Source: Silvibacterium dinghuense (GTDB taxonomy: Bacteria > Acidobacteriota > Terriglobia > Terriglobales > Acidobacteriaceae). Taken from it: 64,000 nt of DNA. The notes below the pieces were generated by a model. The model saw only the letters and a program-made list of their open reading frames with translations, had not been told where the DNA came from and did no database searches. Below, in pieces: positions 17,093 through 20,225 of the stretch. The position numbers were made by a program, and so were the translations under genes. How positions within the stretch are numbered: the stretch's first letter is position 1; every line of letters begins with the position of its first letter. The stretch lies in NCBI RefSeq assembly GCF_004123295.1, contig NZ_SDMK01000001.1, forward strand, positions 868,001-932,000, in the 5' to 3' direction.

Positions 17093-17854
17093 TTAATCCT
17101 CGACCACGCCGGCAAACAAGGATGTATCCTCGTGCGCCGCGATCGCGCCCCGCGCCGCGACGAGCAGATACCGCTCCGTCGCCTTGTGCGGCTCCAGGAA
17201 GTCCCGCACCCGCTCGAGCACACCAGCCTGCGTCGAGTGCAGCGCGAAGGCTTCATTCTTGCGCTCCGCCAGTTCCCCTTTCAGGTCCAGCGTCAGCGAA
17301 TACGGCACCGTCGGCATGACATCGAGCTCGGGGCAGTCCCGCACGCTCACAAATGGCGTGCTGTGGTAATAAAGCTTCTGCGCCGTCCAGGTCGTAAGCC
17401 CGCGTCCCAGCTGCTCGGGAAAATAGAAATCGCGCGCAGCCCAGTGAAAGGCCGCCGTCGCGGCCATCGACACCACGGTGTGATCGCGATGCAGGTTCAC
17501 GTTGCCATCGCCGCCAAAGGTCAGCACCACGTGCGGTTTCAGCGTGCGGATGCGTTCTACCAGCACACCGATCAGCTCGTACAGATTCATGCGCAGCAGC
17601 TCGCCGTCGGGATAATGCAGCACCTCATGGCTGGTCACGCCAAGAATCTCACTGGCCGCTTCGAGTTCGGCCCGGCGCAGCCGTCCCAGCTCCGCGCCGT
17701 CGGCGGCATTGCCGCGATAGTGCGCCGCCTGCCCGTCCGTCAGGCAGACCAGGTGTGTGGCAGCACCCTCACGGTGCGCAGTGAGCAGCGCGCCTCCAAA
17801 GGCGCCGCTTTCGTCGTCAGGATGTGCAGTGATGCAAAGCAGGCGATAAGACAT
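17093..17854 (-). CDS. PIG-L (LmbE) family deacetylase
   Basis: Zinc-dependent deacetylase of the GlcNAc-PI/mycothiol-type superfamily. The metal motif AHPDDE sits at residues 10-15, with the second histidine set in NLHRDHT. The length of 253 residues is standard. The substrate cannot be told from sequence; N-acetylglucosaminyl conjugates or bacillithiol-like precursors are family options. It is preceded by a two-gene lower-GC module 11 bases upstream and followed by ogt. Confidence 0.88.
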   Translation of the reverse strand: MSYRLLCITAHPDDESGAFGGALLTAHREGAATHLVCLTDGQAAHYRGNAADGAELGRLRRAELEAASEILGVTSHEVLHYPDGELLRMNLYELIGVLVERIRTLKPHVVLTFGGDGNVNLHRDHTVVSMAATAAFHWAARDFYFPEQLGRGLTTWTAQKLYYHSTPFVSVRDCPELDVMPTVPYSLTLDLKGELAERKNEAFALHSTQAGVLERVRDFLEPHKATERYLLVAARGAIAAHEDTSLFAGVVED

Positions 17855-17865
17855 ACCTCTCTAGG

Positions 17866-18429
17866 CTAAGGGATTGTTGAGATTTTGCTAAGCCCCCCGA
17901 TTTCGGTCCAAATGCGAATCCATTCTTTGCAGACGGCGTCGAGAGCATTTTCGATTTCTGCTCCATCGTGAATGGCAAATCCAAGGCACACTTCATTTGG
18001 AGACAGCTGTGGACCGGTCAATTCGAACTTCGTACTTTCGAAGACAGCTCCGATCTTGGCGTAGATGTCGTTCGCGCGGTTGCCATCACTGACCCAAATT
18101 GAAAAGCATGCAGCGGCTTTGTTGCCCTGCTCCCATGTGACATTGTGATAGACCCTCCAACCCTGCGATTTGAGCCTTACTCCCAGGTCGGCCGTGACGC
18201 CGTCGACATCGCTACTCTCGATGCGGTCCGGTTTGCGGCGAATCTCGATCTTGGTCTTGACCAGCTTCTCTCCCATCGCCCGGGCGATTTGATCAAAGTG
18301 CAAGTCAAACGAAGCCCTGCAGCGCGTTACGATGGACTCGCGAAAGTCACGCAGCGCGGCTAGCGCCTGCGGGTACGACTTCAATCCTTCAGACAAGAAC
18401 TCCAGTTCCGATATCGCAGGTTCAGGCAT
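17866..18429 (-). CDS. Unknown protein, second gene of a nuclease-linked pair
   Basis: I do not recognise a family. The ATG at 18429 lies inside the end of the nuclease gene, giving an eight-base overlap (ATGCCTGA), so translation is coupled. A longer start at 18507 is possible but lacks support. The 187-residue protein is soluble. An N-terminal helical third is followed by a mixed alpha/beta region (VKTKIEIRRKPDRIES, then GWRVYHNVTWEQGNKAAACFSIWVSDG). The composition and lower GC differ from the neighbours, which suggests transfer. The tight pairing with a PD-(D/E)XK protein suggests that it regulates, targets or binds the nuclease. Confidence 0.7.
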   Translation of the reverse strand: MPEPAISELEFLSEGLKSYPQALAALRDFRESIVTRCRASFDLHFDQIARAMGEKLVKTKIEIRRKPDRIESSDVDGVTADLGVRLKSQGWRVYHNVTWEQGNKAAACFSIWVSDGNRANDIYAKIGAVFESTKFELTGPQLSPNEVCLGFAIHDGAEIENALDAVCKEWIRIWTEIGGLSKISTIP

Positions 18430-19342
18430 TCGATCTCTCCGATCTTTGAATATGTCGCAAGGTTTGCGCGTACTGCAAAGGCTGATGTGCTTTGCCAGGT
18501 GTCGCAAGCTTCAAGAGGTTGCGTTCTACCGCTCCCGCAAATGAGAGCGCGAGAGCAAGTTGCATGTATGTGCGGGAGCCGTCAGCGAGTCTTCGCCTCA
18601 CGACACGTCGGATACCCTGACATACCGTGGCCCACGATGAAAAGTGATAGTCGGAGTCGTATTTGGAGAGATTTCCGGGCTCACCGGCTGCAATGACGAG
18701 CTTGATGTGCTGCTTAAATCCTCTACCACTCGAATCTCGAGCGTTTTTATAGCCAACAATTTGGCAATTCAGGCCTTTCACTTCGTCTGGATGATCGAGT
18801 TTGACTTCAATAAGCATCCACGAGCCGTCCCCCACGTCGATATCAAGGTCTAGCCGGCCTGTACCTCGTTGTCTTGTAGTTGCGCATGCGAGCTGTTCTG
18901 CATCTTTCTTTGGAATCCATACAAATAATTCACGCGCGACTTTAGGCTGGCTCAGAGAAGGTGCGTCAGAAGCTTCGAGGTTGAGGATGCTCCGAATGTC
19001 TGCCGCATCGGTGATGGTTTCGAAGATCCACGCCAGCCAATCCGAATAGACTTCCTCGCGGGCAGACTTCAGCCATCGATGTGTACCCAATTTGTCGTTT
19101 AGTGGATCGCACAGTGGGGCGAAATTCCTATTTGAATCGCGCAACGCTTCTTCGAGCGGTACGCGCAGCGACTCGCCATACTGGCATGCAGCATCGATAA
19201 GCCGTTGCATTGGCTTCCATGACGTTGCTTCTAGCGCGGCTGCGCGCTTAGAAGCGATGCGACGAAGTTGGGGTTGAGAAGGTGGACAGAGGGCAGCCCA
19301 GCGGGCTATGACACGAGAGGCTTCTTGAGCAGTCACGCGCAC
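18422..19342 (-). CDS. PD-(D/E)XK nuclease superfamily protein
   Basis: The 306-residue protein carries a PD-(D/E)XK core: D165 in GRLDLDID, then E179 and K181 in WMLIEVKLD, and a QxxxY motif at Q194-Y198. An upstream EVYSDWLAWIFE segment (residues 97-108) is like that of PDDEXK_4-type proteins. This implies a metal-dependent DNA or RNA nuclease, or a degenerate binding version. The start is a GTG without a strong ribosome site. Local base composition is visibly lower in GC than the flanking rnhB and PIG-L genes. The eight-base overlap with the next gene makes a two-gene module, plausibly a defence system; that role is inferred only from type and context. Confidence 0.72.
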   Translation of the reverse strand: MRVTAQEASRVIARWAALCPPSQPQLRRIASKRAAALEATSWKPMQRLIDAACQYGESLRVPLEEALRDSNRNFAPLCDPLNDKLGTHRWLKSAREEVYSDWLAWIFETITDAADIRSILNLEASDAPSLSQPKVARELFVWIPKKDAEQLACATTRQRGTGRLDLDIDVGDGSWMLIEVKLDHPDEVKGLNCQIVGYKNARDSSGRGFKQHIKLVIAAGEPGNLSKYDSDYHFSSWATVCQGIRRVVRRRLADGSRTYMQLALALSFAGAVERNLLKLATPGKAHQPLQYAQTLRHIQRSERSNA

Positions 19343-19388
19343 ACTTTATCGAATGCTGGAGAGGGAATGGAAGGCTAATTTCAGGCAG

Positions 19389-19514
19389 TCACTGTAGCGC
19401 AGATGCCGATAACCCACTCTCACCCAGCGCGGCTTCGGCCATGAGCGTCGACTCGCTCGCTTCGTCGGCGGGTTCTTCGAGTAACAACAGCTGGGTGCCA
19501 TGGTGAATGCTGTC
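19389..19514 (-). other. In-frame 41-codon extension beyond the rnhB stop
   Basis: Directly after the rnhB TGA the same frame stays open for 41 codons, beginning DSIHHGTQLLLLEEPADEA and ending GLSASALQ before the next TGA. The composition (Leu, Glu, Ala rich) looks coding, and no start codon lies near its beginning. It may be a C-terminal tail lost by a nonsense change, or a read-through extension. Confidence 0.4.
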
Positions 19515-20225
19515 TCAGGGCAGCAAAGCCATCGCCACCGGCCGAAAGCTCCTCCGGTGCAGCGGCGTAGGACCATGCTCTCTCAGTGCGGCCAGATGCG
19601 GAGGCGTACCGTAGCCCTTGTGCGAGGCGAGGCCATACTCCGGATACTGCGTATCCAGCTCGCACATCAGTTTGTCCCGATAAACCTTTGCCACCACCGA
19701 AGCCGCAGCAATGGAAATCGACAGAGAGTCGCCATAGGTGATGCTGGTCTGCGAGCAACTCCGCCCCGGCCCCAGCTCCAGCCGCATGGCGTCGATCAGC
19801 AGATGATCGGGCTCGGGCGAAAGAGCGAGAGCTGCGCGGGTCATCGCCAGCCGCGTCGCCTGATAAATATTCACGCGGTCGATCGTCTCCACATCCACCT
19901 CGACGATCGCCATGCCCAGCGCTGTTCCGCGCACCACCTCGTTCAGCCGTTCCCGTTCTTTCTGCGTCAGCTGTTTCGAGTCGCGCAGGCCGGGAATGTC
20001 CGTCTCTGGCGGCAGGATGACAGCGGCGGCCACCACCGGCCCGAAGAGGCATCCGCGCCCCACCTCGTCCACGCCGGCGATATGCAACGCACCCTGCTCG
20101 CGAGCGACCTTCTCATACTTGTTGCCGCAGACCAGCGTGCGCAGCATCTGCAGCTTGCGCGTCGCGGCGGAAAGCTCGCGGCCAACTTCTGTTTTCGCAG
20201 GGGATGAGGACGTCTTGCGAGGCAT
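19515..20225 (-). CDS. rnhB: Ribonuclease HII
   Basis: RNase HII cleaves RNA of RNA-DNA hybrids, including single ribonucleotides in DNA. The active-site motif HIAGVDEVGRGCLFGPVVAAAV carries the catalytic D and E, followed by GLRDSKQLTQKERERL and HLLIDAMRL. The frame extends upstream to 20387, but that part runs through a dispersed repeat, so the ATG at 20225 (MPRKTSSSPAK) is chosen, giving 236 residues. About 40 residues precede the domain. In many genomes rnhB follows rplS, as here, about 340 bases away. The gene stops early relative to an open in-frame tail. Confidence 0.92.
   Translation of the reverse strand: MPRKTSSSPAKTEVGRELSAATRKLQMLRTLVCGNKYEKVAREQGALHIAGVDEVGRGCLFGPVVAAAVILPPETDIPGLRDSKQLTQKERERLNEVVRGTALGMAIVEVDVETIDRVNIYQATRLAMTRAALALSPEPDHLLIDAMRLELGPGRSCSQTSITYGDSLSISIAAASVVAKVYRDKLMCELDTQYPEYGLASHKGYGTPPHLAALREHGPTPLHRRSFRPVAMALLP

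Follow-up and report, generated by a model that had tools for sequence, protein, structure and literature searches.

The window, a 64,000-nucleotide stretch of the Silvibacterium dinghuense genome, carries two overlapping genes that form a real, acquired, co-inherited and unnamed pair, and that on balance probably constitute a horizontally acquired module encoding a two-subunit, methyltransferase-free DNase used against foreign DNA. Underlying this reading are the nuclease motifs of the first gene product, the overlap of the two genes, their co-conservation, an empty site in related genomes and a sporadic spread, together with the existence of both split and fused forms at other loci of the family PDDEXK_4. 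Positions are collected in Table 1.

Table 1. Features of the gene pair in the window, and split PDDEXK_4 pairs at other loci.
Feature	Position	Strand	Remarks
Gene 1, candidate PD-(D/E)XK nuclease gene	18422-19342	minus	306 aa; GTG start
Catalytic D165 codon (G-R-L-D) of gene 1	18848-18850	minus	from the sequence, relatives aligned
Catalytic E179-V-K181 codons of gene 1	18800-18808	minus	E179 at 18806-18808, K181 at 18800-18802
Gene 2, partner gene	17866-18429	minus	187 aa; ATG start at 18429
Overlap of genes 1 and 2	18422-18429	minus	8 bp, ATGCCTGA; from the sequence
Extra DNA from PIG-L start to rnhB stop, absent in relatives	17855-19514		genus comparison; end positions approximate
Split PDDEXK_4 pairs, other Acidobacteriota	L055:884-2163, L058:833-2223, L053:1264-2644		overlapping partner of ~180-190 aa

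The gene pair and its insertion site

The translation of gene 1 contains G162-R-L-D165, I-E179-V-K181 and Q194-I-V-G-Y198; all of the residues named in the original prediction (D165, E179-x-K181 and Q194-x3-Y198) are thus present, and the order of D followed by E-x-K is that of the core of the PD-(D/E)XK superfamily, whose members cut in a metal-dependent manner. R163, D165, E179 and K181 are invariant across five aligned nucleases (that of the window included), and D plus E-x-K is also present in a sixth sequence (L079), so that D, E and K are kept in 6/6; Q194 is variable among the relatives, with PELKRF in G743. A second in-frame GTG, two codons downstream of the first, is equally plausible as the start of gene 1. 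For gene 2, the ORF list puts the start at a TTG (18507) simply because this is the earliest one that the frame offers; the ATG is most likely the true start because the relatives begin there, which places it inside the last codons of gene 1, as had been proposed. The overlap suggests that translation of the two genes is coupled.

Neither product matches a Pfam, NCBIfam or PADLOC model in the family scans, and those of gene 2 returned no housekeeping family, one of two outcomes that the original prediction had set against itself. Sequence searches of the PDB gave nothing with the nuclease and one meaningless match (E 0.93) with the partner, and AlphaFold models of the two proteins from two-row alignments are too low in confidence to be of use (pLDDT 37 for the nuclease and 45 for the partner).

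The pair is flanked by genes that we take to be rnhB (19515-20225, or longer) and a PIG-L-type gene (17093-17854), in a neighborhood of housekeeping genes in which inspection of the ORF list by eye revealed no defence island and no obvious methyltransferase. Its GC content is lower than that of its neighbors, as first noted (0.53-0.54 versus 0.59-0.65, a local comparison within the window), and its GC3 is 0.51 for gene 1 and 0.63 for gene 2 versus 0.69-0.80 in seven other window genes. The distance from the PIG-L-type gene to rnhB is 1660 bp in the window, versus 252, 36, 65, 46, 35 and 47 bp in six genus genomes and 39 bp in a seventh, where rnhB is cut by the contig end; orthologs were matched at 62-69% (PIG-L) and 69-76% (rnhB) identity, and the eighth genus genome (G580) is uninformative as it gave no PIG-L ortholog match. 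The site is empty in 7/7 informative genus members, and the spacing of 35-252 bp in all of them identifies the pair as an acquired insert; conservation of the pair at the locus in all relatives by vertical descent, the other outcome set against the prediction, is thus not what is found. None of the eight genus genomes carries the partner gene. Horizontal acquisition of the pair is accordingly supported. No tRNA, target duplication or terminal repeats were seen at the ends of the insert, and promoter and terminator scans gave results at or below shuffled expectation.

Relatives of the pair

Relatives of the window type are rare (at most 1.5% of each sample) and scattered in Acidobacteriota. Counting the window's own genome each time, nuclease relatives occur in 3/200 family genomes, in 6/397 order genomes (one being weak, G008 at 21.6 bits, and one a remnant with a stop) and in 3/198 class genomes, and a phylum sample of 396 yielded only the own genome and two weak matches, the L008 match being to a long PDDEXK_4 protein; partner relatives occur in 2/398 genomes. 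Among named metagenome assemblies, one Acidobacteria contig (L002) also carries a nuclease relative of the window type. No copy came up when viral, phage and plasmid sequences were searched with the window-type proteins, and two weak haloarchaeal plasmid matches are long PDDEXK_4 proteins and not of the window type.

The partner lies directly behind the nuclease in 5/5 loci with readable downstream DNA, at a spacing of -8 bp in the window, +3 in G015, -4 (ATGA) in G743 and -14 in L002, the G1032 locus being broken (the -19 given for G743 in the census below reflects an alternative in-frame ATG, and -4 is preferred). This count leaves out G096, where the sequence ends 2 bp behind the nuclease and the partner was not found elsewhere in the genome; G1020, where the nuclease locus runs off the contig; and G632 (L042), a remnant. 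Identity to the window proteins is 27-32% for the nucleases and 18-31% for the partners, the loci differ in their neighbors, and the frames of both genes are intact in the window, G015 and G743. Because both frames are conserved together at unrelated loci, chance ORFs are very unlikely, and the two genes are distributed like an accessory module that genomes acquire and lose whole.

Three copies look decayed, which may reflect assembly error: L002 (7900-8607) has lost the open frame ahead of the core, G632 has a stop and G1032 (L079) a frameshift. At the G015 locus (L003:1486-2819) the gene of an IrrE/ImmA-like peptidase, whose Peptidase_M78 match is just under the cut-off, shares 4 bp with the beginning of the nuclease gene, so that a three-gene operon is possible there, beside a weakly Rep_trans-like gene.

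Single-chain and split forms of PDDEXK_4

By sequence the window nuclease is taken as a remote relative of Pfam PDDEXK_4 (PF14281) rather than a member, and the link is weak. PDDEXK_4 is touched by 2/4 nuclease relatives scanned, the window protein included (best E 0.0016); the window nuclease is below the curated cut-off of 22.3 bits with no match at all, and the G743 nuclease is also under it (E 0.013, 15.8 bits). When a profile of four relatives was compared with six long PDDEXK_4 proteins, D, E-x-K and a following W fell in register (P 1.7e-4); a three-row version gave P 0.15, 0.13 and 0.005, so that the result is alignment-dependent.

All four long PDDEXK_4 proteins scanned (L047, L062, L063 and L065) match PADLOC PDC-S26, with E down to 4e-152 and, in three of them, coverage over most of the length; the PDC-S26 models match none of the window, G015 and G743 nucleases. 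The statement that the pair has no name therefore holds for Pfam, NCBIfam, PADLOC and PHROGs and needs amending for the wider family, which PADLOC labels PDC-S26. PDCs are described as mostly unvalidated candidates from 'guilt by embedding', among them several that consist of one gene (PMC12988326); a term search of the PADLOC server paper (10.1093/nar/gkac400) gave no mention of them. No paper naming PDDEXK_4, PF14281 or PDC-S26 was found among open-licence full texts, a limited test, and a PDB sequence search with a long form gave nothing. On an Azotobacter plasmid (L065:569-6585) a long, PDC-S26-like PDDEXK_4 gene lies between Fic and type I HsdR genes, and other long forms adjoin toxin-antitoxin genes.

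A search with PF14281 gave matches in 5/199 phylum genomes, and three split forms were found: G281 (247+179 aa), G221 (C269; 276+187 aa) and G267 (271+190 aa), with overlaps of 4, 4 and 8 bp. Like the window pair, these consist of a nuclease followed by an overlapping, smaller partner; unlike the window nuclease, those of L055, L058 and L053 score clearly as PDDEXK_4. In a set of 16 proteins, the G267 (L053) partner aligns with two long forms, the 482-aa L052 protein (residues 271-440, 1.1e-6) and one from Acinetobacter (residues 230-400, 2.4e-4); judged by these matches, a fused protein has truly been split in G267, or the two parts have been fused in the long forms. The G281 partner has a weak match to long forms (4e-4 over 28 columns) and the G221 partner none to their C-terminal region; neither resembles the window partner in sequence. 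The other split proteins gave no match in viral and phage scans.

Unlike the G267 partner, that of the window has no detectable similarity to the PDC-S26 C-terminal region. With three relatives it gave a best E of 0.47 (blastp) and 0.3 (phmmer) against that region of the long forms, and a concatenated nuclease-partner profile aligned no better than its counterpart with a reversed partner; homology, tested four ways, is unsupported, and the relationship is treated as analogy. The window pair fits the split architecture by position, size and total length (493 aa) and in nothing further. Pairs total 453-493 aa of coding length versus 369-482 aa for 14/16 long forms, from which the window pair also differs in being two genes instead of one and in falling under every Pfam and PADLOC cut-off.

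Split and fused forms were compared in a census of 25 chosen loci; L059, L064 and L067-L074, several of which are unannotated, cut or frameshifted, are not among them. In nine nucleases the chain continues for 72-126 residues past the lysine, and all eight of these with readable DNA behind are followed by an ORF of 179-208 aa that begins between -19 and +40; the one at +40, from Rossellomorea, resembles a long gene that has been broken. In the other sixteen it continues for 266-411 residues, and none of them (0/16) has an ATG-started ORF of partner size behind it; a frame of 186 aa beginning with TTG at +9 behind the long form of G221 (C228) may be spurious, and three of the sixteen have other frames downstream, with lengths of 229 aa, 463 aa and at least 787 aa. 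At a further locus, G834 (L074:577-2710), the PDDEXK_4 C-terminal region lies in another, overlapping frame, through natural split, frameshift or assembly error.

Proposed function and alternatives

We infer complex formation between the two products, DNA as the substrate, a function for the partner and a role against phages or plasmids along the following lines. The product of gene 1 would be a PD-(D/E)XK endonuclease, with predicted metal-dependent cleavage, and that of gene 2 its obligate partner, translated from the same mRNA by way of the gene overlap; the overlap and the constant order of the genes suggest that the two subunits are made in a coupled manner. The partner would attach to the nuclease and supply recognition or release, and by analogy its role would most likely be that of the long-form C-terminal region, which may recognize foreign, modified or damaged DNA and license cleavage. 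Since no methyltransferase is linked, specificity would depend on something that distinguishes invading DNA (a mark, a structure or a signal), and self-protection would probably lie in conditional activation or in the need for a mark that the host lacks, as in type IV restriction.

A toxin-antitoxin-like arrangement, in which a nuclease toxin is checked by the second protein and serves addiction or abortive infection, would also fit two overlapping genes that are sporadic and acquired, with no methyltransferase evident nearby. It is nevertheless unlikely: the partner of a related split PDDEXK_4 pair corresponds to the C-terminal region that single-chain forms carry fused to the nuclease, which is unsuited to a labile antitoxin; the window partner matches no DNA-binding or antitoxin family in the family scans; and first position and larger size, both of which the toxin gene would have here, are unusual for a toxin. 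Of the nuclease-partner module originally predicted, the nuclease identity, the two-gene unit and the acquisition hold, and the toxin type is disfavored because of that C-terminal correspondence.

That the nuclease instead serves DNA repair or recombination and has no part in defence, or that the pair is cargo of a decayed mobile element, is distinctly improbable. The housekeeping surroundings of the window pair, the decaying copies in L002, G632 and G1032, and the weakly Rep-like and ImmA/IrrE-like genes beside the G015 copy would agree with it; however, genes missing from nearly all relatives are no core repair genes, and the two stay together at different sites. Least credence is given to a remnant of a restriction-modification system with its methyltransferase lost or located elsewhere, to which the PD-(D/E)XK core and matches of the partner to methyltransferase models in the PADLOC scan (E 0.037 and 0.04) might point; these matches are very weak, at 10-11 bits, no listed neighbor resembles a methyltransferase by eye, and the frames are intact in three genomes.

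The favored two-subunit DNase resembles known systems in part. GrwAB is described as a modification-dependent restriction enzyme encoded by two genes where a single protein is usual (PMC12137116); like the window pair it is methyltransferase-free and belongs to a family that is usually one protein, and it needs both genes, but it combines DUF262 with a His-Me nuclease and has been tested experimentally, whereas the window pair is known from sequence alone. Hachiman HamAB (PMC12278908) is described as a nuclease effector with a second subunit that holds and releases it; HamB is a helicase, whereas the window partner is far smaller and has no such match. In one screen, PD-(D/E)XK domains are reported in 13/31 additional validated systems, and of 24 units picked solely for remote homology, six of them with PD-(D/E)XK nucleases, one protected (PMC13092281). 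At this base rate the presence of a nuclease domain by itself argues weakly for defence, and such a role for the window pair, as read from its sequence, is plausible.

More tentatively, and with some doubt, the pair may represent an unnamed family of two-component restriction systems lacking a methyltransferase, in which a sensor or specificity subunit has separated from a PDDEXK_4 nuclease, changes fast and is possibly exchangeable, with PDC-S26 as its single-chain counterpart. PADLOC treats long PDDEXK_4 as a single-gene candidate and misses the window pair entirely. If active, the pair would add a compact two-protein nuclease system, and the split and fused forms would provide a natural experiment on the role of the PDC-S26 C-terminal region.
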